64,000 nt of DNA from a virus. The stretch's first letter is position 1, and the number at the start of each line of letters is the position of its first letter. The notes below the pieces were generated by a model. The model was not told where the DNA came from. It was given only the letters and a program-made list of their open reading frames with translations, and did no database searches. The stretch is taken from positions 1-64,000 of IMG/VR virus record IMGVR_UViG_3300025712_000005; one strand, 5' to 3'. Of the stretch, positions 1,101 through 59,797 are shown piece after piece. The translations under genes were made by a program, and so were the position numbers.

Positions 1101-1589
1101 CTACTTCTTAACTGCTAGTTTACCCCTGTTTGGTATTTGATTTCTAGCCCCATTATTCACAACTATTCGGTTGTTCTTTTTTCGGGACTTTCTAAGATCC
1201 ATTAAATACCCTGAATGCACTTTAACCATCTTGTCTCGGGCATAGGCAGCCTCCTTCTCAGTAACTTTACCGTCAGGGCGACCGTATAGGTTCCAACGAT
1301 TATCCCCAGCCTTAATCGACTTCAAATAGTTAATTGAGGTCGTGTAAAAACCAATGGCAGCATAAAGGTCTTTGGAGCTGATTATTTTAGGGGAGATAAC
1401 ATTTCTTATCTGAAGATAAATCTTTGTTGCAAACGGTTTGTCTCGTTTGAACTTGTATTCGTTCTCTCTTAAGTAGCGTGAGACCCAAATCCATCTGTAA
1501 TGGTCTGATTTGAAGTGGAGTCTCTTTTTGTGAGGGTAATGATAAACCCCCGCCGATAAGTAAATCTTATCCTCGTCAATTTCCGTCAT
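1101..1589 (-). CDS. ProQ/FinO-family RNA chaperone-like protein
   Basis: The 162-residue product has a central ProQ/FinO signature: an LYAAIGFYTTSINYLKSI helix, then AGDNRWNLYGRPDG, then KVTEKEAAYARDKM. This parallels the family pattern of YT-S--YL--L--G--R-DL-G---G-(V/L)T--E---A. The C-terminus is strongly basic (RKSRKKNNR, KLAVKK), like the RNA-binding tails of ProQ proteins. ProQ/FinO proteins bind intrinsic-terminator hairpins and help small RNAs pair with mRNAs. It starts at ATG 1589. The standard start box lies just inside the gene (1571-1584) with its ATG changed to AGG. It has an AT-rich leader with a TATAAT of its own. Confidence 0.75.
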   Translation of the reverse strand: MTEIDEDKIYLSAGVYHYPHKKRLHFKSDHYRWIWVSRYLRENEYKFKRDKPFATKIYLQIRNVISPKIISSKDLYAAIGFYTTSINYLKSIKAGDNRWNLYGRPDGKVTEKEAAYARDKMVKVHSGYLMDLRKSRKKNNRIVVNNGARNQIPNRGKLAVKK

Positions 1590-1618
1590 AATTTTTCCCG
1601 AATTATTTATTATTTTTT

Positions 1619-1624
1619 ATTATA
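1619..1624 (-). promoter_or_regulatory. candidate -10 box upstream of the ProQ-like gene
   Basis: A perfect TATAAT on the minus strand sits in a very AT-rich spacer 30 bases before the ATG at 1589. The -35 region is weak (CTTTCA at 17-base spacing, 3 of 6 matches). It could let the ProQ-like gene be transcribed separately from the primase gene upstream. Confidence 0.35.
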
Positions 1625-1650
1625 ATTATTTATTTTTAGAATGAAAGCCC

Positions 1651-4600
1651 TCAGGCTCTCATTTTCATACTTAGTCGCTGTCTTAACTCTAAGCCCTCAA
1701 ATAAATCACGTTGATATTCGTAAGGCATTCTCTCAACAAAGGCGTGCATTGCAGCTGCCTTCGCATTTCCAGCTAACCGATGATAGTAATAGCTCTCAAT
1801 AGCCACGGGTATTTCTTCCCGTTGGTTATACATGCCTGAGGTCGATGCTGCCCTAGCTCGGCGGAGGTCTGTATTCAATTCAATAAGTCTGACCTCGCAT
1901 AATTTATGAGAGGTTACTCTCATACCATTCACTCTGCTACGCTTTCTTTCAAACTTAAGACCAATCGAGCCCAAGACCTTAGATATAAATTGTTTCTTTT
2001 CTTCAGGGTCTTGTGTGCTCGGTACCTTCATATGGTGCAAGTAATCCATTTCACGCTGGCATATGCCTAACGCCCTAAACGCGTTCTTTTGTACCTTCTC
2101 ATCGATGTCGCGCCCGTCATAGCTCAGCTGGCCGTTTAGAATAATAACCCCTAACTCAGCTAAGAAGTCCTTTAGCATCGTGTAGTGTTCGGCATAGGCC
2201 GTTTTATCCTTGTCCGCTCGAAGGTCATCTATTCGGTTCAAAGCATCGGTAAATCTAAGATGATTAATGTCTGCTCCTAGGATCAAAGACTTTCTTCTCG
2301 CAGCAATTCTTTGAGTCGAGGACAATAACAAATCGGCAAACTCTTCACCGTCTTCCTCAAAGCCAAAGGTATGGGCAAGACGCTTCTTAGTTACCCGTCT
2401 GGTCTCATCCGCACTTAGGTTCACACCAATATTCAATAAATGATATTCCTCATCATCAATCAAAGGCGTGGCCACCATCTCCTCACGTTCTTTTCGAGTA
2501 AGCTCTTCCGCTAACTGGCGAATTTGTTTATTGGCAAATCTACCGGTACCTGTGTCGAGGTCATACAATTTGTTAATCGTGTAACCTTCGTTCTCAAGCT
2601 GCGTTAGCAAGTTTTCACCAAATTCATTTTTGTTATTGTTCTCAATAACCGTAAGGGCCACGTACCAGCTGTTCCAACCAAAGTCGTTATAAGTAATCGA
2701 CTTTGTTACAAGGTCGTATTCCGCCACGTTCGAGAAATGCATCTGATTATCTAAGGTCATCTTTTTACCGTTGATGTCCCGAGCTAAAATCTCAATAGGC
2801 GTTGTCGGATATTGCTGAACGTTGTCCTGAATGCACAAGTGAATCTTTGTGCATTCTCTTACTCGGGACATATGCTGAGCACAATCCGAGGGTAAGTTAC
2901 CCGAGCGTTTGCTGAAGTAGCCAAAAGTTTCAGCAAAGAAACTTTGTCCGTCCGTAGCATCAATCGAGTGGCCTGTCCCCATCGAGGGTGAACTTAATAA
3001 AATGTCATCGTGTCTCAACTCAGTGTTGATAGCCTTTACAAACGTTTGCACTTCTTCATTCTGAGAATTGTGGCTGGTTATCGTAATGATACGGCGACCG
3101 GCAACCTCAGTGATGAAATGCTCTTCAGCAATAATCGGGTCACCCCCAAATTTCTTTATCAACAAACTGGCTTTCTTAAGCACATCCTTACGCGTGTTAC
3201 TCGCATAGAAGGTACCTTGGCCTTGCTCGTAAACCACTTCAAGTAGCTTATTCGTGAAGGCGTTGACGTCTGCTTTTTCATCATTGTTCTTGTAAAGCTC
3301 AATCCCGCTGCCTTTCTCTTTTGCCGGTTTAAAATTATTCTCTACAAGGTGCATTGCTTTTTCTTTATCGAGGATCCCAAACTTCGGGTTGTACATTAGT
3401 TCAATCATCTCCTCGTTTAAATCTGCATCCATCAAAACAACTTTGTTGGCCATCTGGCAAAGGTTTCTCAATGTTCTTACTGTCGCCGCTGGGAACTCAA
3501 CAACCGGCGACTTTAACGCTCTAAGTAACTGACACGCTTCATCAATAATTATGATGTTATATTGCGTGCCTTCGATTCGTCTTAAGCTAGGCAAACATAT
3601 TGAAAGGCGAGGGCACATTCTCAAGTTTCTACCTTCAACCTCATTGTAATCCTCAAGATTGAAGACTTTAGCCGTTGTCTTAGCCAGTGAAATAAGGTGG
3701 CTGATTGACAATACTCTGCCCTCCGTAGCCTTGATTTGCTTGGCCAACGAATAAGTTTTACCGGTTCCTTTACTCGACTTCACAAAGGTGTAACCCGAGC
3801 GCAACGTAATCTCTGGTAAGTATTGCTGTTCAAGTATGTACGGCTTTTCAAACAAGTGACCTAAGCTTGACGGTGCAGCTGGCGGTTTTTCTTGATGATG
3901 TGATATCGACTTTCTTAAAACGAATTGGCGACCACCTTCAACGAAAGAGTTAATCACTGGGTTAGTGTTACCCCACTTATCGAAGTTGGCATAAAACTTA
4001 GCCTTAGATGCGCCTTTCTCCGGTCTGAAGGGGTCTACACAAGACGCTTTGTCAAACTCTAACGGGTTTAACGCTGCGTACATAACCGTGGCGACTCTAC
4101 CATCTTCAAACTCTAAGTGATCACTTGGATGAAGGATGAAGCTCTCACGTCCTAAAACAATCTTACGCGCTGTCTCTTCATCAATCCTGTCTTTGGTATA
4201 GTGCCTCTCATGCACAATACGCTTTATATTAATCTCTCTCAGCTTCTCTAAGCGGTTTAAAAGCTTAGGGCAAGTCTTGGCATCGTTTTGAACTTCTTTA
4301 AGCTCACGGAGGCGCTGGTCGTCAACCGTTGATAGCTTCTTTGTATCCAGAACTTCGTGGGCCTTGCCGTAATACTCAGGCATCGGACGCTTTTGATAAA
4401 AGTCCTCGTTCTCAGGGATGAATGCCCCCGCTTCGAAACACAATCTTTCCGGTTGGAATACTGAGGTATCAAAAGGAACGCGTAGCATCTTGCTTCCGTT
4501 TCTTGATAACTTTATATGACCCAGCCCTGCAAGCCAGCAACGCTTTTCTAACGCATCCGAGAAGCGTTTAATATCGCGTGCATCTTTTACTTGGAAATAA

Positions 4601-5157
4601 ATATGGAAGCCTCTAGGCTCGGCAATACATTCCCCTGAACTCTTCAGATATAAACCACCTGAGGTCGAGAATGTTCTAACGAAAGAGGTGTCGGCTAGTT
4701 CTAATTCAGGCACTGCTTTGTTGAGTAAACGAATAAACTCTAACGGGCAGTTTATTGGGTTCTTTTCTTGCTCATCGACATCGTAATCCATCATGATGAA
4801 ACCACGGTGCGATTGCTTCATCGACTTACCTGAGCGAGTCCCATAGGTTCCTGAGTCGTCAACGTGAACAGGGTACTGATAGCCCCTGTTTTCAAATTCA
4901 TTTACAGACAACACTTCAATTTTTTTGTCTTGATACCCTTCGAAAACACCAAGTGAAAAACACTCATCTGATTCTAGTCCGTTGATGAAGTTGGGTAATT
5001 CTTTTAGTGATAGATTGACGGTGTTGGCAATGCCGGAGAACATCTTAGGCGCTTCTGATTTGATCTCGCCGTGAACACGGGTAAGCGTCTTTGTAAGCAC
5101 ACCACTACCGGTTTTAAATACGGTAAGCGGGGCACCCTTATTATTAGTTTTAATCAT
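1651..5157 (-). CDS. AEP-type primase fused to a superfamily 2-like helicase
   Basis: A 1168-residue replication protein. The N-terminal third has an archaeo-eukaryotic primase pattern: a metal-binding MMDYDVD near residue 121 followed by PRGFHIYF. The middle has a Walker A motif SSKGTGKT near 459-466 and a Walker B IIIIDEA near 535, as in origin-binding/plasmid replication helicases of the herpes UL9-like and CyRepA-like groups. It likely primes and unwinds phage DNA. It begins at a near-consensus start box (GGAAAATGACGATG), preceded by a strong hairpin. A second, SF3 helicase is encoded at 39.3-41.6 kb. Confidence 0.75.
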   Translation of the reverse strand: MIKTNNKGAPLTVFKTGSGVLTKTLTRVHGEIKSEAPKMFSGIANTVNLSLKELPNFINGLESDECFSLGVFEGYQDKKIEVLSVNEFENRGYQYPVHVDDSGTYGTRSGKSMKQSHRGFIMMDYDVDEQEKNPINCPLEFIRLLNKAVPELELADTSFVRTFSTSGGLYLKSSGECIAEPRGFHIYFQVKDARDIKRFSDALEKRCWLAGLGHIKLSRNGSKMLRVPFDTSVFQPERLCFEAGAFIPENEDFYQKRPMPEYYGKAHEVLDTKKLSTVDDQRLRELKEVQNDAKTCPKLLNRLEKLREINIKRIVHERHYTKDRIDEETARKIVLGRESFILHPSDHLEFEDGRVATVMYAALNPLEFDKASCVDPFRPEKGASKAKFYANFDKWGNTNPVINSFVEGGRQFVLRKSISHHQEKPPAAPSSLGHLFEKPYILEQQYLPEITLRSGYTFVKSSKGTGKTYSLAKQIKATEGRVLSISHLISLAKTTAKVFNLEDYNEVEGRNLRMCPRLSICLPSLRRIEGTQYNIIIIDEACQLLRALKSPVVEFPAATVRTLRNLCQMANKVVLMDADLNEEMIELMYNPKFGILDKEKAMHLVENNFKPAKEKGSGIELYKNNDEKADVNAFTNKLLEVVYEQGQGTFYASNTRKDVLKKASLLIKKFGGDPIIAEEHFITEVAGRRIITITSHNSQNEEVQTFVKAINTELRHDDILLSSPSMGTGHSIDATDGQSFFAETFGYFSKRSGNLPSDCAQHMSRVRECTKIHLCIQDNVQQYPTTPIEILARDINGKKMTLDNQMHFSNVAEYDLVTKSITYNDFGWNSWYVALTVIENNNKNEFGENLLTQLENEGYTINKLYDLDTGTGRFANKQIRQLAEELTRKEREEMVATPLIDDEEYHLLNIGVNLSADETRRVTKKRLAHTFGFEEDGEEFADLLLSSTQRIAARRKSLILGADINHLRFTDALNRIDDLRADKDKTAYAEHYTMLKDFLAELGVIILNGQLSYDGRDIDEKVQKNAFRALGICQREMDYLHHMKVPSTQDPEEKKQFISKVLGSIGLKFERKRSRVNGMRVTSHKLCEVRLIELNTDLRRARAASTSGMYNQREEIPVAIESYYYHRLAGNAKAAAMHAFVERMPYEYQRDLFEGLELRQRLSMKMRA

Positions 5158-5184
5158 CGTCATTTTCCAAATTGTTAAGAGAAG

Positions 5185-5214: not shown

Positions 5215-5799
5215 TTATAGTCGACTTAGGTCTGCCTCCATGTATTCAATACATTTCAGAACCTTGCCGCTTGGGAAGGTTTTATCACCCAACACAGTCG
5301 TTTCTTTCACTTTCACAATAAATAACGCTTCACCCACGGTGTGCTCCGAATGAACAGGGTCGGCAGCGGCTGAAATACCTAGCTCTCGATAGAAGTCTAG
5401 TGTTAATCCAACGTTGGCTAGGGTACATATTTTTGAAAGATTGCTTCTGTGTACAATACCCCATGCGTCGAAAAAGTTAAATTTTAAATTCTCGGCAGCA
5501 CAGAGGAATGTGTCTAAAAGCCCCAGCAGATAAGGGTGTTGCATTTTTAATGTTTCGTAAGTTAGCGAATTTTCTACAAAGTACCCCATGACTACATACG
5601 CACTATCAATAATGCCGTCTATCTGCAAAGCTCTCTCGGTGGATGAGAATCCTTCTATCAGCTCTTCGCGCAATAATTCAATGTGAAGCTCGGTGTTATC
5701 GTTGTTGGGTTGGTTGCAAGGTAAACCAAAGGCTCCTCTAAACTCAATAATATCCATCCAAAGCTTAGAGAATTTGTCACCATTTAAAACTTTATACAT
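5215..5799 (-). CDS. MazG/PRA-PH-like nucleotide pyrophosphohydrolase
   Basis: The 194-residue product contains LLREELIEG followed about 20 residues later by IDGIIDSAYVVMGY. This matches the EExxE...D..D metal-binding helices of the all-alpha NTP pyrophosphatase superfamily (MazG, HisE). These enzymes hydrolyse nucleoside triphosphates or related alarmones, and phages often carry one near replication genes. The region after residue 110 is not recognised. The ATG at 5799 belongs to an exact start box. Confidence 0.65.
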   Translation of the reverse strand: MYKVLNGDKFSKLWMDIIEFRGAFGLPCNQPNNDNTELHIELLREELIEGFSSTERALQIDGIIDSAYVVMGYFVENSLTYETLKMQHPYLLGLLDTFLCAAENLKFNFFDAWGIVHRSNLSKICTLANVGLTLDFYRELGISAAADPVHSEHTVGEALFIVKVKETTVLGDKTFPSGKVLKCIEYMEADLSRL

Positions 5800-5827
5800 C
5801 GTCAATTTCCTAGTTGTTTGTGAGTTC

Positions 5828-6800: not shown

Positions 6801-9668
6801 TCAATCCTTATTCATTAAATAATCGACAACTCTTTGTCTGTGAGCGTCGTCTAGCTTTGTGTCAGCGAGGCTCTCAGGAATATAACCCTCCAAATGTGGA
6901 GCTTCGTCTAACTCTATTTGACCAAAGGGCGCTTTCACAGGGTGATAGGGCTCCAAGGTTTTACCAATCGATATTGTACCATCCAGTTTTAATTCTGAGA
7001 CTAAATCAGGATGATCACACATCGTTTTTAGAATAATTTTTGAGAACTCAACTGCCTGAGTATGATGAACACTGAATATCAATTCATCATGGATAGGCAT
7101 AATAAAGTTAGCATCCCATTTACCGGTCTCTAATATCTCGTCTAAGCGGATAATAGAGCGTTTGGCTAGGGTTGCACACCCTCCTTGTATCTTTGCGTTT
7201 ACGCTTTGATTGCCAGCTCTACGTTGTATCTTTTTAGCTATCATGTAGCCGAACTGAGCAAGGCCGCTGTCGTTATATGCGCTCCATTTATTCGTAAACT
7301 CAAAAAACCATTCGTTGGTTGCTTCGTATCTAACGCGGCGGTGGCCATCAAAGATATTTACAAACCCGTTGTAACCCACCTCTTCGATAACACCCTTGCG
7401 CCAAATCTCAGCCCCTCGGAAAGTTAACCGGTAATTGTCGGTACCTTCCCACATCTCATCGCTTGTCCAGCCCAGCTTCTCCTGAACCGTCATCAATGAA
7501 CCTGAATACCAGTAGCCGAAGTTTGAAGGCTTACCGGCAGTACCACGCCAAAATTTTAAGACCTGATAATTTTCCAAGTGGTTTTTCTTAACCGGATCAA
7601 TAAAGACCTTAGGGAAATGCTCACGAAGCTCAAAGATATCCTCCTCGCTTCCTGATTTAATCGAAAGCAAATTCTCTTCAGTGAACTCAGGGTAAAACAC
7701 TTTCAACGCTGCAGCTGCCGCTCCTAAGTGCAAATCCTCATAGGGGATCTGACCATAAGCTTTTTTAAATGCTGGGTCTAAAGACTCCTCACCAATCAAC
7801 ACTAGCTCTACCTGAGACCAATCGATGGCAACCAACAAGTGCTCATCGTTCTCGGGTAAGAAGAAACCTCGAACGTAGGTTGAGTCCCCCTGCTTAGAGA
7901 GCTGCATTGTGTTGGGATTCTCAGCCGCCATTCGTCTGGTGTTCAATAGTGAGCTGATAACCGGATACATTCTTTCTGTCTGTGGGTCAGTCAGCTGTCG
8001 ATACGAGGTTACAAATAACTTAATCCGCTGCTCAATCTCAGCAATTCGATTTAACGAAGTGATGATCCTTTTTACCGTCTCAGTCGGGTAGGCTGCAGCA
8101 ATGCCTTTGGCAAGATTTAAACGCATCTCTTCCGGTAGATTGGTATGCTCTCCGTACCGGTTCCACTCTTTTAGCCAAAGCTCTGGCTCGTTCTTTAATC
8201 TATCTGCCGTCTCAAGCATCGTACCGCGTGCTTCACCATCACTTTTTATTTCCCCTTTGATGTAAACGAAAGGCAACATACAAAGGTCGTGTAGCAAGGT
8301 ACGCATAACCATGTAGTGAGTATAATTACCTCGTTTGTCCAGCTCAGCTTTCTTTAATTTAACATCTTGCTCATATAGCCAAGCTTTGCTCACCGACCCT
8401 GAAGTCAACTGACAAAGTTCAAACGCAATTTCTTCATTCTCTAAGTCATCTGAGCTTATATGCTCTAAATCAAAGTAGCTGCAGATATCGTCAACGCCAT
8501 CGAGGAGGAACTGAATTTTGTTTCGGTAAATTTGGTACTTGTCGTTCGTCTTTCCTAGGTACCACTTAGGGTTCTTCTGGCTTAGTCTCGCTGAAGGCGC
8601 ACTCATGAAACTTATTTCAGCAATCGCATTGCTTAAGTTCAATAACTCCTGAGCATACATTTTTCTTTCTGAAATATTACGCTTCTCGATATTCTCAAGA
8701 TTAACTCTCCAGCCCTTTATCCAACTTTTGCCGAAGATCCTAACCATTGGATTTTCTTGAGTGAAGAACGTGTTTAACAACTGAGGGTTAGTATTCTGAA
8801 CGAACTGCATAAGCCAATCAAAGCAACGTACACACCAGTAAGCATCATCCGCACCGTAATGGAGAATTTCTTCACCGGTAACCTGTCCCATATGAGCACG
8901 GCCTAACAATGCGTCTTTGAACGTGGTCTGCTCATATCCGAATATTTTTTCACTCATCTCTTTAAGGCCGTAACCGTAGCGAAGGCTTCTAACGTAGCCG
9001 TTATAGCTGTGTGCTGCGATAGATTGCTTACCGATGACCATATTCATGACTTGAACCTGTTCGGTCGTCAGAGGCTTTCCTGTGACGTATCCGGCAAAGG
9101 TCTTTTTGATGATAGGAAGGACAGCTTTCATGCCACCAAGGTCTGCTTTCTTGAACCGCTCCTTGTCGTACTCGTCAGAGTTATAAGCTGAAACGGCCAG
9201 TTGCATGGTATCTACATAGTTCTTGCCGATATCAACGCCGACTGTCTTCATAAGCATGACGAATTCGAATTGATAATTGTGAATGATAAGTAGGCTGTTA
9301 TCTCGAACCTTCTTTACAAACTCAGCAAAAATTTCTTTTGGGATTCTGTTCTCAACGTCAGCATGAGCAACATTGATATAATAAACGGTTTCATCTCCTC
9401 GGAGATAAATAGAACCACCGCAGAGGGTAGTTCGGTTTGTATCGAACACGAGCTTTCTAGGTTTCTTAAATACTTTTGACTTTGGATTCATTTCCATGAA
9501 TTGGTTCAAACCGTCATGTCTATCCGCATCGTGGGTTTCAATATCTAAACCAACAACTGCGTTTTCGGTAAACTCAATTCGGTCAATCAACTCGCTCAAC
9601 ATGTTAATATTACGCATGTCGATCAGTTGCTCAACAATCCCCGTGAGGGGGTTAATTCTACTAATCAT
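6801..9668 (-). CDS. polA: family A DNA polymerase with 3'-5' exonuclease domain
   Basis: The 955-residue replicative polymerase has an N-terminal proofreading domain (GLDIETHD near residue 45, HNYQFEF, and LHYGADDAYWCV near 275). The palm motifs are A, DWSQVELVLIGEES near 616; B, GKPSNFGYWY near 712; and C, IHDEL near 859. Motif A has Val where most Pol I enzymes have Arg (DYSQIELR). Phe in motif B is the usual Pol I residue for dideoxynucleotide discrimination. It lacks a 5' nuclease domain, which is supplied by the separate gene upstream. Start box GGAGTTGACGATG. Confidence 0.95.
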   Translation of the reverse strand: MISRINPLTGIVEQLIDMRNINMLSELIDRIEFTENAVVGLDIETHDADRHDGLNQFMEMNPKSKVFKKPRKLVFDTNRTTLCGGSIYLRGDETVYYINVAHADVENRIPKEIFAEFVKKVRDNSLLIIHNYQFEFVMLMKTVGVDIGKNYVDTMQLAVSAYNSDEYDKERFKKADLGGMKAVLPIIKKTFAGYVTGKPLTTEQVQVMNMVIGKQSIAAHSYNGYVRSLRYGYGLKEMSEKIFGYEQTTFKDALLGRAHMGQVTGEEILHYGADDAYWCVRCFDWLMQFVQNTNPQLLNTFFTQENPMVRIFGKSWIKGWRVNLENIEKRNISERKMYAQELLNLSNAIAEISFMSAPSARLSQKNPKWYLGKTNDKYQIYRNKIQFLLDGVDDICSYFDLEHISSDDLENEEIAFELCQLTSGSVSKAWLYEQDVKLKKAELDKRGNYTHYMVMRTLLHDLCMLPFVYIKGEIKSDGEARGTMLETADRLKNEPELWLKEWNRYGEHTNLPEEMRLNLAKGIAAAYPTETVKRIITSLNRIAEIEQRIKLFVTSYRQLTDPQTERMYPVISSLLNTRRMAAENPNTMQLSKQGDSTYVRGFFLPENDEHLLVAIDWSQVELVLIGEESLDPAFKKAYGQIPYEDLHLGAAAAALKVFYPEFTEENLLSIKSGSEEDIFELREHFPKVFIDPVKKNHLENYQVLKFWRGTAGKPSNFGYWYSGSLMTVQEKLGWTSDEMWEGTDNYRLTFRGAEIWRKGVIEEVGYNGFVNIFDGHRRVRYEATNEWFFEFTNKWSAYNDSGLAQFGYMIAKKIQRRAGNQSVNAKIQGGCATLAKRSIIRLDEILETGKWDANFIMPIHDELIFSVHHTQAVEFSKIILKTMCDHPDLVSELKLDGTISIGKTLEPYHPVKAPFGQIELDEAPHLEGYIPESLADTKLDDAHRQRVVDYLMNKD

Positions 9669-9685
9669 CGTCAACTCCAAAGATT

Positions 9686-9706: not shown

Positions 9707-10525
9707 CTAAGCGGTGGCCATACTCGGAATATCTTTGTCGATGGCTAAGACATCTAGTATTTTTTGAGCCGCTGCCATATTGCCGTCACCCAGCTTCATT
9801 GCTTGGCTTAGCTTGGCACCGTCAATCCAAAGGAACCCAACAATGTCCCAGTACTTCTTCAGCAGGTCACGACTACCAATAAAGTTCTTGACCATTGCTG
9901 GGGTGAAACCTATTTGCTCTTTTACTTCAGCTTCGTCTAACTCAACCTCACCCAAAATAAAATGCTCAATTAACGTTTTTTGAGTGTCGTTTAATTTAGC
10001 AAAGGTTTTAGGCCCAAACCCTTTCAAGCCTTTGATGTTATCCGCCGAATCGCCGCAAAGCGTTTTGTAAATTCGGATATCATCGTAAGGGATGCCATCG
10101 AACTTAGGCGCGTTATACTCCAGCGTGATGGTGCTGTCTTTCAAAAGCTGTCTGAAATCTTGGTCGTTTGAATCGATAAACACTTCAGTGTCCGCCGATT
10201 TAAAGTTAACAATCTGAGCGATCAAATCATCGCCTTCATAGCCTTCCAATTCTACTTGGATAGCTTTTGAATGGTTCATTAAACCTTTGAACTCAGACAT
10301 GAACTTGTAGAATTCATCGGTGGTGTTCCCATCGCCTTCTTTGTACTCAGCGAGGATATTTCTACGGGCTTGCTTGGCATTCTTTCCATCCCAAACCCAA
10401 ATCACTGTCTCACCGGCCAGCGTCTTGGTAAAACTGTTCACATACAAATCTTTGATTACGTATGGCCCTTCAGCTTCTACTTTTCTTCGAAGCACATTAT
10501 TTCCGTCAACAACATGAATTTTCAT
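9707..10525 (-). CDS. 5'-3' exonuclease / flap endonuclease (FEN)
   Basis: 272 residues with FEN-family features: an N-terminal VVDGNNVL aspartate, GYEGDDLIAQIV near 118, IDSNDQDFRQLL near 138 and a helix-3-turn-helix DNA-binding region LCGDSADNIKGLKGFGPKT near 178-196. The family removes RNA primers and flaps (T5 D15, T4 RNase H, Pol I N-domain). It complements the polymerase that lacks this domain. It starts at a one-base variant of the start box (GACTATG) and follows an intrinsic terminator. Confidence 0.9.
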   Translation of the reverse strand: MKIHVVDGNNVLRRKVEAEGPYVIKDLYVNSFTKTLAGETVIWVWDGKNAKQARRNILAEYKEGDGNTTDEFYKFMSEFKGLMNHSKAIQVELEGYEGDDLIAQIVNFKSADTEVFIDSNDQDFRQLLKDSTITLEYNAPKFDGIPYDDIRIYKTLCGDSADNIKGLKGFGPKTFAKLNDTQKTLIEHFILGEVELDEAEVKEQIGFTPAMVKNFIGSRDLLKKYWDIVGFLWIDGAKLSQAMKLGDGNMAAAQKILDVLAIDKDIPSMATA

Positions 10526-10545
10526 AGTCAATTTCCTACTCGGTT

Positions 10546-12069: not shown

Positions 12070-13536
12070 TTATGCTGCAGCAAGTATTTTATCAATAAAA
12101 TCTACCGGTACACCGGTCTCAATTTTGAGGCGGTCATCCGATTTACTTTTCAATTTTCTAGCGACCTTAACGTCCATCCCGTTGCGATAAATCAACAGAA
12201 TGATTAACAAAGCTTTCTCTCGAATGCCTCGCATTGCTCTTCGGTAATTTTGAATGAACATGGTGTCTGTCCAATCAAAGCAACCAAAAATAACAGTGTC
12301 CACATGCCCCCAGTTGTAACCAACCCCAGCGACTTTTGGACTGCAAATCATTATTTGTATTTCACCCGAGCGAAACTTTTGGTCGAAGTCTGTCCGGTCG
12401 TTAACTGTGCCGTTAATAACCGCATAGGTAAGCCCCATTTTCTCGCAGACTAACGCCAGCTTTTCATGGGTGGCCACTATCTTGTCAAAGATGATCAGCG
12501 GCTTACCTGAACGCCTATGCTCCTCTAAATAACCAATCAACTTGGCTTCTTTGGAATCGGTCTGGTGATAGGGTAGGCCAAAGAGCTCTGGGGTCTGCAT
12601 GATGGCAAAACAACGCGCAATCCCGACAGCCTCGTTTTCAGCTTCAAGGTAACCGTCTTCAAGTTCCGTGATACCTCGCTGCTCAATTTCTTTGTAGGCC
12701 TTATACTGTTTTTCACCCATTGAACACATATCAACAACAATTTCTTTTTTCTCGGCGCCATACGCTTCTTCGAACGTAATGCGGCGACTGTGAGCATCGA
12801 CAATGTTCTTTAGTCGGTCATGGTTCTTCCACATATACGGCGTGCCATATTCGTCCACCAAAGCGTGATAGATGAGGAAACTCTTGTACGTAGGGTAGTA
12901 ATTAGGGTTAATCACTTTTAAGGCCGGATACGCCGAAGTAAGGCGTCCGTCAATCAATGTGCCGGTCATCCCCAGAAAGTTTCCACCTCTGGCCATGAAT
13001 CGATACATGTTGAATGTTCTTCTTGCTCCCTCAAACCCGCTCTTCAGTCGGTTGTTTGGTTCTCCATGAGTAGAGAACCCCATGTGCCACTCATCCACAC
13101 AAAGGTGATAGAGGTCTGGGTGTTTCTCGACTATTTGCTCCCACTTGTCAGCTAAAGCATCAAACCCCATCAAAAACACTCGCGTGTCTTTGTGCGCTAT
13201 CTGCTTTGCTTTTTGGGCCGGAGTACCATCAAAAATAGTGACTTCATTCGGTGTCAGATTTGACCATAGCAAAAGCTCCTCGTAATTTTTTACGATAAGT
13301 GACTTAGGCATGGCCCATACTACTTTTTTATCTAAGCACTGCTGATATATCCAAAGCGCAGCAGTCGGACTTTTACCGGTACCGGCTTCGCTCAAATCTA
13401 GCCCACGCTTCTGACTTAAAAAGTATCCTAAAAATTTGCTTTGATAATCTCGAAGGGAGAGCGTATCTCGCTTGGCAACCAAGGATTCAAAATCAAATCC
13501 TGTTTTCAGGCTCGGTTGTTTCGGTAGTAATATCAT
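12070..13536 (-). CDS. SNF2-type SF2 DNA helicase/translocase
   Basis: 488 residues with ordered SF2 motifs: Walker A EAGTGKS near residue 49, a DExH-type VDEWH near 145, motif III GMTGT near 195, and the C-lobe motif VI QNYRRAMRGIRE near 440. The SNF2/RapA-like arrangement suggests an ATP-driven dsDNA translocase or helicase used in replication, recombination or transcription control, like those in many phage replication clusters. It overlaps the HTH gene upstream by 44 bases, implying coupled translation. Start box GGGAATTGACGATG. Confidence 0.85.
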   Translation of the reverse strand: MILLPKQPSLKTGFDFESLVAKRDTLSLRDYQSKFLGYFLSQKRGLDLSEAGTGKSPTAALWIYQQCLDKKVVWAMPKSLIVKNYEELLLWSNLTPNEVTIFDGTPAQKAKQIAHKDTRVFLMGFDALADKWEQIVEKHPDLYHLCVDEWHMGFSTHGEPNNRLKSGFEGARRTFNMYRFMARGGNFLGMTGTLIDGRLTSAYPALKVINPNYYPTYKSFLIYHALVDEYGTPYMWKNHDRLKNIVDAHSRRITFEEAYGAEKKEIVVDMCSMGEKQYKAYKEIEQRGITELEDGYLEAENEAVGIARCFAIMQTPELFGLPYHQTDSKEAKLIGYLEEHRRSGKPLIIFDKIVATHEKLALVCEKMGLTYAVINGTVNDRTDFDQKFRSGEIQIMICSPKVAGVGYNWGHVDTVIFGCFDWTDTMFIQNYRRAMRGIREKALLIILLIYRNGMDVKVARKLKSKSDDRLKIETGVPVDFIDKILAAA

Positions 13537-13867
13537 CGTCAATTCCCGTGTAATGCTTTTGCAAATCCACTAACTCAATTAGCAAATCTAAGCATTGTTT
13601 GTTTTGTTTAGGGTCTTCCATCAAACTTAAAATCTCAGCAATATGCGACTGTACGTTTGGGAATATTTTTTCTATTGGTAGCTCTAACTCTCGAATTATT
13701 TTTAATAATATCGGGAGTCTAGCTGGCGTCTTTGATTTCAGTATGTTTGAAATAATAGGCTGCTTAAGGCCCAGCTTATCCGCCAGCTGTTTTTGCGTTA
13801 TTCTTCTTTTTTTCAGCTCTCGTTGGATAAGGTACAATCTATCTTGAAACGATATATCTGAAGACAT
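13493..13867 (-). CDS. XRE/Cro-type HTH transcriptional regulator
   Basis: 124 residues. Residues about 14-70 are a classic helix-turn-helix (RRITQKQLADKLGLKQPIISNILK), followed by LPILLKIIRELELPIEKIFP as in XRE-family antitoxins or Cro-like repressors. The C-terminal part is helical and acidic. The start is ATG 13867 behind GGGGGAG; a TTG one codon earlier is less likely. It sits directly upstream of, and overlaps, the helicase gene. Confidence 0.8.
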   Translation of the reverse strand: MSSDISFQDRLYLIQRELKKRRITQKQLADKLGLKQPIISNILKSKTPARLPILLKIIRELELPIEKIFPNVQSHIAEILSLMEDPKQNKQCLDLLIELVDLQKHYTGIDDDITTETTEPENRI

Positions 13868-13881: not shown

Positions 13882-14565
13882 TTAAGCTACGTCTAAGTTC
13901 AAACTACCTTTACAATATTCACCTACAATGTAGGCTCCGATGTGTTCGAGAGGTAACGATACCAACTCTTCAAAGGAGATTAGTTCTTGTAACCTAGTTT
14001 CTAAGTTACGCACTAATTTTGGTAATATCAGTGAACCTTCACCGGCAAGGATCAAGGTTCTTGGGTTTGACACACTGCTCTCAGCAAGCTGTCTCGCTTC
14101 GAGCACGTCATCGGGTTTGATGTTAGTGAAAACTAAGGGGTGAATATTAGTAACCCCTAACATTTTGTGTTTTATCTTCGAGCTGTGCTGCCACATGGGA
14201 ACAACGCTAACGTGGAAAGGATTAGACATTCTTTCTAAACAAGCTAACCAGTGTGTTGCATTGTCCATCTGACTTTGGTCAAAGAAATACGCACGGCCAT
14301 TTATAATGGGGAGCATCGCTTGGACTAATGGGTCATTAGCTATTTTTAAAAACGTATTCCACTGCTTTTTACTCACATTTCTGTTTGCAAGGTGGACGTT
14401 AATACTGTGGGGGCATTTGTTATTCAGCTGTCTAACACTCATCGATGACTTAGTGTTAGCGCCGATAAATTCCCATCCGTATGGACAGGTGTCTTGAAAT
14501 AAATAAGCTACCCCATTTTCTTCTTCATGGATGCCATAATACGGCAAGTGCTTTGTGTGGTTCAT
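13882..14565 (-). CDS. hypothetical protein
   Basis: 227 residues, not recognised. It contains scattered Cys and Trp residues and a C-terminal helical part (LETRLQELISFEEL). It begins at an exact start box and lies between two HTH genes, so it might act with one of them, but nothing in the sequence shows this. Confidence 0.7.
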   Translation of the reverse strand: MNHTKHLPYYGIHEEENGVAYLFQDTCPYGWEFIGANTKSSMSVRQLNNKCPHSINVHLANRNVSKKQWNTFLKIANDPLVQAMLPIINGRAYFFDQSQMDNATHWLACLERMSNPFHVSVVPMWQHSSKIKHKMLGVTNIHPLVFTNIKPDDVLEARQLAESSVSNPRTLILAGEGSLILPKLVRNLETRLQELISFEELVSLPLEHIGAYIVGEYCKGSLNLDVA

Positions 14566-14594
14566 CGTCAATTTCCTAATTGTGGGTAACGGCC

Positions 14595-16025: not shown

Positions 16026-16087
16026 CGTCAATTTCCTCTAGGTGAAATCTAATTCTGACAATTAGATTCAAGTTTAGATATTATCCT

Positions 16088-16282: not shown

Positions 16283-16293
16283 CGTCAATTTCC

Positions 16294-17142: not shown

Positions 17143-17167
17143 CGTCAATTTCCTTAATTTTTAGTTG

Positions 17168-43996: not shown

Positions 43997-44010
43997 CTTG
44001 GAAACTGACG

Positions 44011-45459: not shown

Positions 45460-45541
45460 CTGAGATACTAGAAATTACTGGTTAGATAAAGTTATAGTAA
45501 TAAAGAAACTCGTTAAGAGTTAAAAAATTTGGAAAATGACG

Positions 45542-47129: not shown

Positions 47130-47157
47130 TTGATAACTGAAAATTAGGAGATTGACG

Positions 47158-48363
47158 ATGAGTTTACAATCATTAACAACTATAAAACGCGCCCCTCTTG
47201 CTGTGATTCTTGGCGAGATAGGTTCTGAAAATAAACAAGCCTCTTCAAGTGCTGGTCTTAGCCTTGTCGACAAAGCCAAGTCGTATGGTATTTCTGTAAA
47301 GGACTACTTGGACTTAGCGGTAGATGTCCGCGCCTCTGAAGGCGAAGACAAAGGCAAGTATCTGAAGAACGCAAACGAGCGTATGTCTGGTTACGAGGCG
47401 GCACTAGCTGACTTGAATCTACCAGTACAGAACAACTTCAAGCAAGGCATTGTGCTTCAAGCAGCTGCGGATAGCTTCAGTGCTCGCCCAGGCTCTCGCG
47501 CACTTTTCCCTGAAGTCATTGACTCAATGATGCAGTGGTCTACGAAGCAAGACCAGTTCGAATCAACTGAAGGTTTAGTGTCTCAAACCCGTACGGTTAC
47601 TGGTAACGAAGTTATCACTCAGGCGATTTTTGATGACCAAGGTCAGTTGAATACGAGCCCGATTGCTGAGTTAGCGAACATTCCAGTTCAGACTATCACT
47701 AGTTCTGATCGTAGTGTGAAGTTCTTCAAGCACGGTTCAGCGATTCGTACCTCGTATGAATTTGAACGTCGTGTTTCTTTGGACGTACTGACTCCGTATG
47801 CTAACCGTGTTGCTCGCAACCTAGAGTTAAGCAAAGTGGCTCAAGCGACTCGTCTTCTTATCGAAGGTGATGGTGTTCATTCTGCAGCAACTCCGTTCGC
47901 AGCAAGTGCGCTGAAGAATTGGGACATCACTGGTTCTAAGTCACTTAAAGACAACTATGTTGGTCTTGCTGACTTCCTAGCGCGTCGTGCTAAAGCGGGT
48001 AACCCAGTAGATACCATCATCGGTAACTACGACATGTGGTTAGAGTTGTTCTTAATGTTCTTACCGACTAAGACAACTAACTCTGATGCTGCAGAGCTTC
48101 AGGGCCGTGGTATGCCACGTGTTGGCCTACAGTTAGACTTCTTGCAAGGTGTTAACTTCAAGATTTCAAGCTCAATGCCAGCGGGTCAGCTAATGTGTTA
48201 CAGCGTTGGCGATACTTTGGAAGAGTTGATCGAAAACGGTTCTGTTCTGTCTGAGTCTGAGACAGCTATCAAGAATCAGTCAATCACGTATATCAAAACA
48301 ATGAACATGGGTTACCGTTTAGTTTACGGCGACACTCGTACTTTGTTAGACCTTACGGCGTAA
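47158..48363 (+). CDS. major capsid protein (HK97 fold)
   Basis: 401 residues. Order, length and features such as FKHGSAIRTSYEFERRVSLDVL (spine-like) and the N-terminal 100-residue charged part (likely delta domain, removed by the protease) fit an HK97-fold capsid. Start box GGAGATTGACGATG; codon choice appears more uniform than in neighbours, as for highly expressed genes. Followed at once by a GC hairpin. Confidence 0.85.
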   Translation: MSLQSLTTIKRAPLAVILGEIGSENKQASSSAGLSLVDKAKSYGISVKDYLDLAVDVRASEGEDKGKYLKNANERMSGYEAALADLNLPVQNNFKQGIVLQAAADSFSARPGSRALFPEVIDSMMQWSTKQDQFESTEGLVSQTRTVTGNEVITQAIFDDQGQLNTSPIAELANIPVQTITSSDRSVKFFKHGSAIRTSYEFERRVSLDVLTPYANRVARNLELSKVAQATRLLIEGDGVHSAATPFAASALKNWDITGSKSLKDNYVGLADFLARRAKAGNPVDTIIGNYDMWLELFLMFLPTKTTNSDAAELQGRGMPRVGLQLDFLQGVNFKISSSMPAGQLMCYSVGDTLEELIENGSVLSESETAIKNQSITYIKTMNMGYRLVYGDTRTLLDLTA

Positions 48364-51664: not shown

Positions 51665-51719
51665 GATTTTTGTTTCTCCTTTCAGGTATTGAGTATAACC
51701 TAAAATTTGGAGATTGACG

Positions 51720-52553
51720 ATGGCTGGTGAAGCACGTTCAAATAAATTCATGTTGGGAACCGCTACCGTAATGATCGGTAATACCAACGAACTATACGAC
51801 CTTAACCCAGACGAACACAGCGTTGGTCTCGTTAAGAATTTCACATGTGAAGCGACGAAAGACCGTACTGACTTAACACAAGGCCGTACTAACGACATCG
51901 TTTTCACATTAACAACTAGCTCAACAACCCGAGCAACGTTCGAGATGTACGAGTATTCAGTGACTAACATTGCTTATGCTCTAGGTCTTGAAGGCGGCGC
52001 TATTACTGAGTTGACCGGTGATGCATTAGTTACTGATGGAGCCGTAACCTTTGCTTCTGGCACCGCTGATTTAACTTTCGTAGACGCAGCGGGTGTTCAA
52101 GATATCTTAGTTGGTCAAGATGTTTCTTTACGTACAGGCGACGGTGAAAACGTTATCCTTGCTAAAGTAACAGCTGTATCAGGTATCACTGGCGGTTCTG
52201 CTACTTCGGCAACGATGACGGTTATGATCCCCGATTCTGTTTCAGTGGCGGCTATTTCTGCAGGTACCCTTGTTTCAGGTGTAACGGTTCTTGAAGTTGG
52301 TTCTACTGACGTTGACCGTGACTTCTCGGCCAAGGTTACTGGCCAGTTGGCAAATGGTACTTACGTTACTTACTTGTTCCCGAAAATCCGTATCACGTCT
52401 GGTCTATCTATGGCGTTTACTACGGATAACTTCGGCAACATTCCTTTTGAGTTTACCCCTATGAAGGTAACTCCTCAGGATGACAACTACATACCATTTA
52501 AAGGATTGTCTGGTAAGTTAGTGATGGATACGGTTCAGGCACCATTGGCTTAA
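51720..52553 (+). CDS. major tail (tube) protein
   Basis: 277 residues, rich in Thr, Gly, Val. The N-terminus (FMLGTATVMIGNTNELYDL) and the C-terminal beta pattern fit siphophage tail tubes. A central segment near 95-195 (LTGDALVTDGAVTF...) looks like an inserted Ig-like or decorating domain. Start box GGAGATTGACGATG. A strong terminator follows, as is usual after the tube gene. Confidence 0.8.
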   Translation: MAGEARSNKFMLGTATVMIGNTNELYDLNPDEHSVGLVKNFTCEATKDRTDLTQGRTNDIVFTLTTSSTTRATFEMYEYSVTNIAYALGLEGGAITELTGDALVTDGAVTFASGTADLTFVDAAGVQDILVGQDVSLRTGDGENVILAKVTAVSGITGGSATSATMTVMIPDSVSVAAISAGTLVSGVTVLEVGSTDVDRDFSAKVTGQLANGTYVTYLFPKIRITSGLSMAFTTDNFGNIPFEFTPMKVTPQDDNYIPFKGLSGKLVMDTVQAPLA

Positions 52554-52602: not shown

Positions 52603-52627
52603 ATTTAAACAATTAGGAAATTGACGA

Positions 52628-53295
52628 ATGTTAGAACCAACGAAAGTTGAACCCCGCCACACTACCATTTTGAATGGTCAGGAACGTACGGTATTCATGA
52701 GCTTTGGCTTAATCAATACGCTTACAAATATGTTTGAGAACGTTGAGCAAATACCCGAGTTATTTACTAATCCGATGCTACGTGGAGTAATATTGGTTGA
52801 AGCCTTTTCGGAGCGAGATGAGCACGGCAAAATCACAAAGGAGTTGAACATTCAAACCCTTGAGATTGAAGACGATGCCTTTATCGAGTTTGTTGAATGG
52901 GTGGAGGTGCATGTCACCAATTTTTTTATAAAGACGTCGAACTCCAACAAAAAGAGACAGCTAAGGCTCACGCAAGCATTGAAGAAAGCGAACTCCTAAG
53001 ATCATTCAATGGATGGTACATGGGGCTCGACTTAGAAGAGCAACTATGTCTTGCCTTTCAATGCGTACCAAGTCAACTCAGCTCAATTTATTGGCGTAAC
53101 ACGTATCGTGATATTCAGACTCAACTCAAACTTGTAGTAGGTTTGAAGACAGTTGAACTCACACAAAACTACGAAAATTTATTGAAGGTCGCTGGAGCTG
53201 TCATGGGTGGCGGTGAAGAGAAGCCACATACCAACGCACCAGAACCAAAGAATGACGCTGAAGCGATGGCCTTAGCAAACGCTGTATTCAGCTAA
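52628..53295 (+). CDS. tail assembly chaperones, G and G-T frameshift pair
   Basis: Two overlapping frames in the place of lambda G/T. The first (52628-52999) gives 123 residues. The second is open to 53295 in the -1 frame with no good start. A run of seven T at 52921-52927, read T-TTT-TTT in the first frame, is a slippery heptamer. A -1 shift there gives a 222-residue fusion continuing YKDVELQQKE. These chaperones hold the tape measure during tail assembly. Start box GGAAATTGACGAATG. Confidence 0.85.
52921..52927 (+). other. -1 frameshift slippery site TTTTTTT
   Basis: In-frame reading is AAT-TTT-TTT-ATA; slipping back one base yields TTT-TTT-TAT. No strong stem-loop is obvious just downstream by eye. 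Confidence 0.7.
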
Positions 53296-53314
53296 ACAAC
53301 TTGGAGATTGACGA

Positions 53315-56300
53315 ATGTCTGTGAACAAAATCCGCCAAACGGTATTGGATATTAATTTATCCTCTGCAGCAAAAAAGAGAATGGACGAAGTTCTTCAAAA
53401 AGCGCAAGCGATTGAGGAAGCTCTTAAAGCGTCTGAACAGGCATTCAATAAATTAGCTAAAGGCAAGTTTACTAGCCCCGCTGCTCGAAATAAATATATT
53501 GAAGAGCAGTCAGGTGGAGCAAAAACAGATCTTACCCAGAGCCGTAAAATAATAGAGCAAAACAGGTCTAACCTAAAAACGTTGCTTGGGGTTGCTTCCC
53601 GAGAAATGTCTCAAGGATTACCTCAGGCTCAGAAAGCATTAATCTCCAGCGCGTTTAATACCATACTCTCTGAATTGAATGGTACGTTTAAAGACACCGC
53701 TAAGAAGGTTCGTCAAAAGACCTCAGACTTCATTGATAACGAGTTCAAAAGAAAAGTTGGCTCTCAACGAGTTGATGTGCGCTCTAATGCCAATCCTAAG
53801 CCACTCTCAGGCAAAAATCTTGAGCAATCAATCCAATCCCTAAGCTTAACCGTTAAGGGCGCTCAGAAGGCGTTAAACACCGGTCTTACTAAGAAAGACG
53901 AAAGCCTGATCAAAAGTGCGACGACGACCCTTGAAAAGAACCAAGGCGTATTGAATCGTTTTCAAAATGAGTTGCGTGACCGTAAGCTTTACGAAAGACA
54001 GTTAAGAAGTTCTGGGGTTAAGAGCGCCGAGTTGGAAAACTTCAACAAAAAAGCGTTCAAAAGAAATCCGTCAGTCACCCGTCAGGAAGAAATCAAAGAT
54101 AAAAAAATAAAGACGCTGACACTTCAAGGGCTGCAAGAACAGCAAGCGAGTCGTCGCACGCTATTGTCTGGGGCTCAGTCGGCGAATAAGTTTGCGGACA
54201 AAAATAATAATCGAGACCTTTACGATAAATCGGCCTTAGCGATAAAGCAGCACCAGACGGCGCTGGAGAAACTAAGCGCAGAGACGAAGCTTAGAACCAG
54301 TATCGAGAAGACCAACAACCAAGCTAGGATAAAGCAGCGCAGCGTTGAGGCTTTCTATGACAAGCGTTATGGCGATAAGCCAGAAGTAAAACGCAAAGAG
54401 GCGATTGCTGAAGCGAAAATTCGAGACTTAAAAAATAAAGAGCTTCAGGATGGTTTGCAAAATGCTAACCTGAGAAAAGGCGCGTCCTACGAAGCATTGA
54501 ACTTTGCTCGAAAGAATGGTGACAGCCGTTTAGAAGCTGATGCTCGAAAAGCGATTACGGAAAACACGGCGCAGCTCAAAGCATTAACCGATGAAAATAA
54601 ACGCCGCACGCAGACCACCGCGCAGAATAACCGAGCCAAAGTAAAGAACGGCAACTTTGATGAGTTCGTAAACAGGCAGTTTAAGTTAAATCCAGCGGTT
54701 CAACGTTTTGACCCGATTAAACAATCCAAGCTCGGGGGTCTTACTGACTCTCAACTCAAAGACCAAATCGCAAGTCAAAAGCTTTTGGTGGCTGGGGCTA
54801 ACAAGGCTAATTCTTTTGCTATCGACAATAAACGTAGTGAAGCTGAACAGAAAAGAGCTAGTGCCGCCTTAGCTGATTTTACCCGTGCGCTAAAAGCCGC
54901 TCAGCAAGAAATGAGTGACCGCAGTACCACGCGAAATAAGAAAGCGCCGATTACAGATGCCCAACGCCGAAGTAACGCTATCGAGAGTGATAAGCAAAGG
55001 ACAGTGAATCGAAACTTTGACGGCGGGGCGGGGCTGTTTAAACAGCAAGCCGCCTTGCTTAGAAACTATGCGGTCATGGGTGCGGGTGTTGGCGCGGTTA
55101 CCTCAGCAGCGACCTTCAGCAATGATTTAGATAAACAGTTCAAGCAGCTACAAAGTATCGTCGCATTGACGAACACTGAGATGAATGAGCTGAAGACAAA
55201 TCTTATCGACGTGTCTGAAGAAACTAAATTTACTGCGCTCGAAGTTGCTGACGCTGCGGTTATTTTGGGACAAGCTGGTTTCGGGTCTAAAGAGATTCAG
55301 GATTCAATACAAGGCGTAACCTTATTCGCAACAGCGGTTGGCTCTGACCTAAAAAGTGCGGTTGACCTAGCAACGTCAACGCTCGGGGTATTTAAGAAAG
55401 ACGCCTCGGAAATGACTGACATCACCGACAAGATGACCACTGCTGTCAACAGCTCAAAGCTGAACTTGGATAAACTAAGCTTAGGCCTCCAGTACTCAGG
55501 TAACTTGGCTGCACAATCTAACGTTCGATTTGAAGAAGTTGTGGCCGCACTTGGCGCCATGGCCAACGCCGGTATTCGTTCAGGCTCAACCTTGGGTACC
55601 GGTCTTCGTCAGATAATCATTGCCCTGCGTAAACCGTCAGAACAATTTGTTAGTATTGTTCGAGGCCTTGGTATCGGGATGGATGATTTAGATATCTCTA
55701 CCCGAGGACTAATCCCCGTATTAAAAACGCTGGCTAATGCTGGCTTTACCTCTCGGGATGCAATCGAATCAATGCAGGTTCGAGCGGCGTCTGCTTTCCA
55801 AGCGTTCGTAGGTAATATTAAAGTTGCTGATGAGCTGCAAACTAAGATGGAACTTGGGGGGTCAGCGGCAAGAGCTAACGGGGTTCAAATGGGTGCCCTT
55901 GCGAACCAACTAGCAAGGCTTGGCTCCGTGGCCAACTCAATCGCCTTTGAAGCGTTTGAACCTATGCTGAAGGTGTTTGCAAAACTAGTTGAAGTGACTG
56001 CAGACGCATTGACAGGTATACGTAATATGGGGCCAGCGTTACAAGGTCTGGGGACGGCTGTCATTACTTTTTTAGGGATTAAAGGGATTGCCAGCGTCAT
56101 TCGTTTACTCGGGTTCTTGGTTGGCGGAGGTGGGGCTTTACGTGCTGCTGCAGGTTTCTTTAAAGGTGCTGGGACAGTTGCCGCTGGAGGAACTGCCGTA
56201 GCAGCGAGAGGAGGGGCGGCAGTAGCCTCGACTACAGCTATTTCTTCAATAATGGCGGTAGTTTTTAGAATACTTGGATTGGCAAGCCCAATTGGTTGGG

Positions 56301-59273: not shown

Positions 59274-59663
59274 ATGGCACTTAAAGTATTTAATTTCCCT
59301 TATCATAAGGCGGCGACTCGTTACCCAGACAGAGGAAATAAAATGACCCTCGGGGGAAACTGGGACTACACAATTAAACCAAATACCCCTGCAGCAAGAA
59401 CGTTTCAACTTTCTTTCTCAGCGATGAAATACTTTGATCCGTTTGCCGTGCTGAGTCTGCGAGAGCAACAAATCAGCATGGCTGCTCTCGAAGCGTTCTA
59501 CGAAGAGCATGAAACCCACACTGCTTTTGTCTATCCACATCCACAACACGGGGATGTGGTGGTTAAATTCAGTGCCCCTTTAGAAATTCCAACCGGAGTT
59601 ACTGGAGGAGATGGGGCGGTTTTAAACATCTCAACGAGTTTAAAAGAACAAAAAGTAACCTAA
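59274..59663 (+). CDS. minor tail protein, gpM-like
   Basis: 129 residues directly after the tape measure. ARTFQLSFSAMKYFDPFAVLSLREQQISMAALEAFYEEHE and the terminal beta strands fit lambda gpM-like distal tail proteins. It begins one base after the tape-measure stop. Confidence 0.7.
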   Translation: MALKVFNFPYHKAATRYPDRGNKMTLGGNWDYTIKPNTPAARTFQLSFSAMKYFDPFAVLSLREQQISMAALEAFYEEHETHTAFVYPHPQHGDVVVKFSAPLEIPTGVTGGDGAVLNISTSLKEQKVT

Positions 59664-59687
59664 TATAATAAATATTAATAAAAGCTA

Positions 59688-59715
59688 TTGACGAAAATAA
59701 AAAAGTCGTTAATAT
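59688..59715 (+). promoter_or_regulatory. sigma70-like promoter of the antisense RNA
   Basis: -35 TTGACG (59688-59693), 16-base spacer, -10 TAATAT (59710-59715). Predicted start at about 59722-59724. The -35 also resembles the core of the start box (ATTGACGA), so part of the match could be coincidental. Confidence 0.5.
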
Positions 59716-59722
59716 AGACCTC

Positions 59723-59797
59723 GATTAGTAAGTTTACTTACTCAATCATCGTCAATTTCCACGTCAACCCCGCCTTAGCTGCGGGGTTCTTTATTTC
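59723..59797 (+). ncRNA. candidate antisense small RNA complementary to the start box
   Basis: About 75 nt between promoter and terminator in a 200-base gap of the tail operon. The 5' part folds as GATT-AGTAAG / CTTACT-(C)-AATC (59723-59747). An unpaired seed follows: CATCGTCAATTTCC (59747-59760) is the exact reverse complement of the start box found at 17 early genes. It ends with a GC-rich terminator hairpin and U-rich tail, the shape bound by ProQ/FinO proteins. On the minus strand the box would open only MIE-stop, so there is no gene to explain it. The rest of the gap holds an AT-rich run and the next gene's leader. Confidence 0.55.
59766..59797 (+). terminator. intrinsic terminator of the antisense RNA
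   Basis: Stem AACCCCGC / GCGGGGTT (59766-59773, 59781-59788) with a 7-base loop, then CTTTATTT. The U-rich tail is only on the plus strand. Confidence 0.75.

Follow-up and report, generated by a model that had tools for sequence, protein, structure and literature searches.

The genome of a putatively temperate phage encodes a predicted small RNA whose seed is the exact complement of a short sequence (hereafter, the start box) repeated at many gene starts of the same phage, together with a ProQ/FinO-domain RNA chaperone. The stretch that we analyzed (the window) comprises bases 1-64000 of the 83,050-base IMG/VR virus record IMGVR_UViG_3300025712_000005. Taken as a whole, these features are probably best explained by a multi-target translational repressor RNA that acts on start boxes in a manner similar to the RocC/RocR system. 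All results are computational and rest throughout on sequence or on model predictions; genes were called by a simple open reading frame (ORF) rule, and gene and transcription starts are likewise predicted. Replication genes (DNA polymerase A, 5'-3' exonuclease, helicase, and a Herpes_ori_bp-type gene) occupy the minus strand of the window, and terminase and structural genes the plus strand. We refer to the genes of these strands as "early" and "late," respectively, labels that were assigned from gene content.

Allowing up to three mismatches, the start box GGAAATTGACGATG occurs 53 times in the window versus 6.8 times expected, a number reached in none of 100 shuffles. The box spans both the Shine-Dalgarno sequence (core GGA) and the start codon (final ATG). 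Eighteen copies are exact, and 17 of these are starts of minus-strand ORFs of 53 to 465 codons, in agreement with an earlier model-made reading of the sequence (the original prediction), which held that early mRNAs carry a perfect target over these two elements. The 18th exact copy is the antisense copy within the small RNA. In addition, boxes are mostly located at starts uncoupled from the preceding gene. Across four genomes compared, a gap of at least 12 bases to the preceding gene was found for 106 of 117 boxed genes and for 154 of 254 unboxed ones (p = 1e-9).

The RNA is predicted on the plus strand, between minor tail genes M (which ends at 59663) and L (which starts at 59867). A 5' hairpin, the seed CATCGTCAATTTCC, and an intrinsic-terminator-like end follow one another (Table 1), and this architecture is seen in all five phages described below, with half of the seed predicted to be paired in two of them (KB12-38 and G001). 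The 75-nucleotide (nt) stretch has a predicted fold of -21.4 kcal/mol versus -8.4 kcal/mol for shuffles (z = -5.8), and the seed is unpaired in the minimum-energy fold except for its first base. Four relatives have promoter-like elements at the same place (TTGACA, TTGACT, TTGTAA, or TTGTCG type). Since the numbers of promoter-like and terminator-like sites in the window are not above those in shuffles, the case for the RNA rests on the arrangement and conservation of these sites. A scan of the window with Rfam 15 returned zero families at the gathering score; a match to the c4 type, tested on this basis, was likewise not obtained. All three parts named in the original prediction exist in the window, as judged by enrichment of the box at gene starts, RNA architecture, and a PF04352 match for ProQ. 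Among them is the predicted RNA with a complementary seed and a ProQ-type terminator end that had been placed among late tail genes.

Four further diverged phages (Pseudoalteromonas phage KB12-38, G001, G006, and G020) possess the full trio, with the RNA in the same M-L gap. KB12-38 has a ProQ gene and an RNA-like element with the seed CATATTGTCAATCC, and its own box, GGATTGACAATATG, is found at gene starts. G001 likewise has ProQ, with the seed CATATCGTCAATCC and the box GGATTGACGATATG. The seed TATCGTCGATTTCC is shared by G006 (where ProQ is also found) and the near-identical G007, and their boxes read GGAAATTGACGAT or GGAAATCGACGAT. The fifth lineage, G020, was found via ProQ alone, and its box, the place of the RNA, and the match of the seed were predicted before the sequence was read; the prediction was borne out by the box GGAATTGACGAT and by the seed TATCGTCAATTCC, followed by a terminator, in the M-L gap. 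Megablast of the late region against phage records gave zero matches, single-protein scans for relatives yielded nothing but fragments of the same phage, and alignments of two to four relatives were required. When the pattern of the KB12-38/G001-type RNA was scanned for, G001-like contigs and chance matches in coding sequence were retrieved.

In each of the five lineages, the seed is complementary to the box of its own phage (GGAAATTGACGATG, GGAAATYGACGAT, GGAATTGACGAT, GGATTGACGATATG, and GGATTGACAATATG). We scored all gene starts of each genome against the five seeds at equal length (18 nt), using the mean of the best 20 and paired comparisons. This procedure replaced an earlier energy screen (-12 kcal/mol, 22-24-nt seeds), which by count discriminated poorly against shuffled seeds. 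The phage's own seed gave the best mean in all five genomes, and 19 of the 20 paired comparisons were significant. Changes at single positions follow pairing rules, in counts that take in the RNA's own site: the window boxes have T opposite seed A (18/18), G001 boxes have G opposite seed C (23/23), KB12-38 boxes have A (20), G (6), or T (3) opposite seed U, and G006 boxes have C (8) or T (14) opposite seed G. Where the seed has G or U, the mixed boxes may represent wobble intermediates in a stepwise change. Moreover, the A-run in the box and the T-run in the seed vary in length together (GGAAAT, GGAAT, and GGAT), and a motif model built from gene starts only ranked the RNA site first among non-start sites in 5/5 genomes. 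Collectively, covariation across five lineages, all of which have a ProQ gene, strongly supports the antisense pairing of RNA and start box that had been proposed.

The box holds a good Shine-Dalgarno sequence at good spacing, and mycobacteriophages have start-associated repeats without a known antisense RNA, so that one might regard the box as merely a favored strong ribosome-binding site or a RegA-like protein site and its antisense copy as a relic, a DNA site, or a decoy. We find this very improbable, given that in five lineages the antisense copy changes along with the box while keeping a constant place, orientation, and hairpin/terminator flanks. Furthermore, a protein decoy would bear the sense sequence rather than its complement. 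Nor is there a conserved short ORF on the other strand: the opposite strand of the RNA site holds an ORF of only three codons in the window and no ATG in G006 or G020, which argues that the site is not a hidden gene start.

The original prediction also called for an early RNA chaperone gene, and the PF04352 match lies in the replication operon (Table 1), "early" again by gene content. A profile made from four phage ProQs matched PDB structures of E. coli ProQ (2.6e-10), RocC, and FinO. The ProQs of G001, KB12-38, and G006 score above the PF04352 cut-off, and that of G020 was assigned by 45% similarity to the window ProQ; when phage records were searched with ProQ, the only other match was KB12-38. 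Residues Y70 and R80 of E. coli ProQ are important for RNA binding (PMC7192607). In an alignment to the E. coli protein made by eye, their counterparts in the window ProQ are Y88 and R98, which are invariant in the four aligned phage ProQs, and the counterpart of E. coli K35 is not conserved. Terminator hairpins that end in a single-stranded 3' tail are ligands of FinO/ProQ domains (PMC9977716), and the co-occurrence of ProQ with the RNA, together with its fold, suggests that the window ProQ binds this RNA. We also observed a 13/14 match to the box at 1571-1584, inside ProQ codons 2-6 and away from the ProQ start, which could make ProQ itself a target of the RNA.

Beyond the computed box, RNA architecture, ProQ, and seed/box covariation in five lineages, we infer transcription of the RNA, ProQ binding, and repression. 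In the mechanism that we propose, a short trans-acting antisense RNA would be made from its own promoter between two minor tail genes, and its seed would pair with a repeated RNA operator, the start box, at ~30-40 phage genes, replication and structural alike. Because the box covers the Shine-Dalgarno sequence and ATG, pairing would block 30S binding and hence initiation, silencing those mRNAs; since boxes lie mostly at translationally independent starts, coupled downstream genes may follow. The phage ProQ/FinO protein would bind the terminator end of the RNA, stabilize it, and aid pairing, as RocC does for RocR. Much of the protein output of the phage is probably under the control of this one RNA.

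The original prediction as a whole is partly supported, and its central proposal of early-only shut-off is weak. According to that proposal, synthesis of the RNA late in the lytic cycle turns off early genes, and late mRNAs escape via mismatches or G-U pairs in the box. The RNA does lie within the late operon in the same transcription direction, and boxes in the window phage, counted at a predicted pairing to the seed of -16 kcal/mol or better, are commoner on the early strand (31/75 genes) than on the late strand (7/37 genes; p = 0.02). The imperfection of late boxes holds for the window phage, in which perfect boxes are distributed 17 early to 0 late, and a similar bias occurs in G020 (13:1) and G001 (6:1), but it fails in G006 (3:4). 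In addition, late genes are boxed in all five phages, and structural genes (those at the portal and capsid positions, the tape measure gene, and minor tail gene L) are among the late genes with a box. No early-late difference in predicted pairing energy was seen for the window phage (p = 0.40), G001 (p = 0.94), or KB12-38 (p = 0.09), and the late boxes of G006 pair better than its early ones (p = 0.006). Finally, a sigma-70-like promoter sequence and a terminator belong to the RNA itself, and a rise of the RNA with late transcription is therefore not implied. We thus judge this scenario quite unlikely.

Boxes on both early and late genes and at uncoupled starts, as well as the promoter-like sequence of the RNA itself, would also fit lytic dosage control, in which a constitutive RNA acts during infection as a threshold or feedback that balances translation of every boxed gene and has no particular connection with lysogeny. 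This option, which we deem unlikely, leaves the association of the RNA with integrase unexplained, although that association concerns only one clade. A tyrosine integrase is encoded at 79282-80337 of the record (i.e., beyond the window), adjoining a DUF4224 gene, and integrase was found in 5/5 RNA-bearing phages and in 0/4 tested outgroups. The co-occurrence with integrase speaks for prophage silencing no less than for timing. Given this co-occurrence, the promoter-like sequence that belongs to the RNA, and the precedent of RNAs such as c4, it is quite possible, and we tentatively suggest, that the multi-target repressor RNA sets a translation threshold, which keeps the lytic genes of a prophage silent, and also those of incoming phages with the same box, and which strong transcription upon induction or infection out-titrates. 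Regulators of the HTH_3 type, the only repressor family tested, are present in the window phage and G006, and none were found in G001 or KB12-38.

With regard to origin, seven outgroup genomes (JWF, Lumi, G008, and G010-G013), several records of which may be incomplete, had no start box and no detectable ProQ, and the M-L gap is absent in JWF, G010, and G011. The RNA-bearing phages form one group in trees of terminase and NlpC (support of 0.996 without G020 and 0.80 with it), which indicates that the system arose once and then diverged. In the genome_contigs collection, minor tail M revealed no prophage relative, and terminase gave one outgroup contig only. A different palindrome, AAGGTTGACGTCAACCTT, is present in 17-25 copies in outgroups G010 and G008, mostly within one region.

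Several observations weigh against a ProQ-assisted repressor RNA with a role in lysogeny. Given the single origin, the co-occurrence of the RNA with ProQ and integrase represents one evolutionary event, and the integrase association is weak because it comes from one clade. ProQ is encoded among lytic replication genes, which has no obvious fit with a prophage role. Promoter-like sequences are weak in G001 and G020. For KB12-38 and G001, the fold prediction places the 5' half of the seed within the 5' hairpin. The window seed pairs with the G020 boxes about as well as the G020 seed does (p = 0.3), the sole non-significant comparison in the covariation test.

The coordinates of the features are compiled in Table 1. 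One further candidate was rejected as a second RNA: at 39186-39199, a one-mismatch copy of the box on the plus strand lies in front of a large early gene and coincides with no ORF start, but the minus-strand fold has a z of +0.9 versus shuffles and no terminator flanks it. The region 20251-22648 of the window contains a second family of start-site repeats (approximately ATAAATCACCGCCTTT, minus strand) and also a duplicated small-gene region.

Table 1. Predicted RNA, ProQ gene, and boxed gene starts in the window
Feature	Position	Strand	Basis or remark
Predicted antisense small RNA, ~75 nt, transcription start inferred	59723..59797	+	Counterparts at same locus in KB12-38, G001, G006/G007, G020
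Promoter-like TTGACG-16-TAATAT of RNA	59688..59715	+	Consensus match only
5' hairpin of RNA	59723..59747	+	Predicted fold
Seed CATCGTCAATTTCC, exact complement of start box	59747..59760	+	Top non-start match to start-box model genome-wide; covaries with box in relatives
Intrinsic-terminator-like hairpin (59766-59788) and U-rich tail	59766..59797	+	GC hairpin; FinO/ProQ-ligand type of 3' end
Promoter-like TTCAAT-16-TATACT between terminator and gene L	59813..59840	+	Read from sequence; same hexamers and spacing in G006
ProQ/FinO-domain RNA chaperone gene, in replication operon	1101..1589	-	PF04352 E 1.3e-12, 48.1 bits vs cut-off 27
Exact start box, 205-codon ORF	613..626	-	Box scan
Exact start box, gene directly downstream of ProQ (Holliday-junction resolvase position, as in KB12-38)	1075..1088	-	RecU family found among early genes scanned together
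Start box (1 mismatch), Herpes_ori_bp-type gene	5155..5168	-	
Exact start box	5797..5810	-	
Diverged start box (3 mismatches), DNA polymerase A	9666..9679	-	
Start box (1 mismatch), 5'-3' exonuclease	10523..10536	-	
Start box (1 mismatch), helicase	13534..13547	-	
Exact start box	14563..14576	-	
Exact start box	16023..16036	-	
Exact start box	16280..16293	-	
Exact start box	17140..17153	-	
Exact start box	17722..17735	-	
Exact start box, palindromic hairpin directly upstream	26051..26064	-	
Exact start box	26952..26965	-	
Exact start box	28600..28613	-	
Exact start box, palindromic hairpin directly upstream	31013..31026	-	
Exact start box, palindromic hairpin directly upstream	34958..34971	-	
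Exact start box, palindromic hairpin directly upstream	35423..35436	-	
Exact start box, palindromic hairpin directly upstream	35897..35910	-	
Exact start box	36388..36401	-	
Exact start box, palindromic hairpin directly upstream	37196..37209	-	
Late box GGAAACTGACGATG, structural gene after terminase (portal position)	44000..44013	+	
Late box GGAAAATGACGATG	45531..45544	+	
Late box GGAGATTGACGATG (G-U with seed), capsid position	47147..47160	+	
Late box GGAGATTGACGATG	51709..51722	+	
Late box GGAAATTGACGAATG, tail chaperone position	52616..52629	+	
Late box GGAGATTGACGAATG, tape measure gene	53303..53316	+	
Late box GGAAACTGACGATG, minor tail gene L directly downstream of RNA	59856..59869	+	

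Among known systems, RocC/RocR is the nearest working analogue, and c4 the nearest one from phages. The CI RNA of satellite P4 is also a phage antisense RNA that acts around a ribosome binding site and is involved in immunity. RocC/RocR of Legionella pneumophila consists of a ProQ/FinO chaperone and a multi-target small RNA that recognizes a "RocR box" (PMC9674577). Both it and the window system combine a FinO-domain protein with a terminator-ended small RNA whose seed is complementary to one conserved box in several mRNAs; RocC/RocR represses translation of the mRNAs with the box, and the phage RNA would do the same with the help of a putatively bound ProQ. Unlike RocC/RocR, the phage system is wholly phage-encoded, its box covers the Shine-Dalgarno sequence and ATG themselves, its RNA has ~30-40 predicted targets that include core replication and structural genes, and its seed and box diverge together between relatives. 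In phages P1 and P7, the c4 antisense RNA has a single target transcript, ant (PMC12197685). Like c4, the window RNA is phage-encoded, is predicted to pair around the ribosome binding site, and differs in specificity between relatives, but it faces dozens of dispersed start boxes. c4 is involved in immunity; for the window RNA, superinfection immunity is no more than a possibility, given the integrase.

The box itself is most closely described by the start-associated sequences (SAS and ESAS) of cluster K mycobacteriophages, which have the consensus GGGATAGGAGCCC and occur at non-structural genes only (PMC3203893). Inverted repeats precede half of these sites, and in K1 phages a single reverse copy lies outside gene starts (PMC3203893). 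The cluster K-like feature for which we tested, a short conserved repeat at many phage gene starts, is present in the window phage. Moreover, the palindrome GGGCATGTGCCC lies directly upstream of the box in 11 of its 13 copies in the window (26068-37240, minus strand) and occurs also at 80610 of the record, whereas in KB12-38 another palindrome, GGGGTAACGTTACCCC, holds the same position relative to the box at 8/9 sites; these palindromes resemble the inverted repeats of ESAS. Unlike in cluster K, the box is GGAAATTGACGATG and variants thereof rather than GGGATAGGAGCCC, structural genes are boxed too, and a ProQ is encoded, whereas none is known to accompany the cluster K sequences. In Anaya (59870-59882) and Adephagia (58682-58694), the lone non-start reverse SAS sits in the loop of a strong hairpin, which by analogy might be a display as in antisense RNA. 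Pixie has no non-start reverse copy, and the reverse copy of ZoeJ is the start of a reverse gene. The parallel is suggestive only. In a broader proposal that we regard as on the unlikely side, the RNA, with dozens of RNA operators, would be a genome-wide repressor of lysogeny that leaves replication and structural genes of the prophage untranslated, the seed/box pairs would be immunity groups diverging via G-U intermediates, and the same design would have arisen separately in cluster K mycobacteriophages, explaining their start-associated sequences.

A protein counterpart is RegA of phage T4, a translational repressor of early mRNAs that acts at many start regions. The window RNA would similarly act at the starts of many early phage mRNAs; it differs from RegA in being an RNA and in that structural genes are no main target of RegA. 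The small RNAs known from phages mostly have one target or a few. In the window phage, ~30-40 gene starts carry a repeated operator that faces a single RNA, and by sequence comparison, both evolve together. If the system works as we read it, it would constitute a translational switch for the whole virus, equipped with a dedicated RNA chaperone, in which seed and box form a simple, swappable specificity code. It would also offer a testable model for the mycobacteriophage start-associated sequences, whose function has been open since 2011 (PMC3203893).

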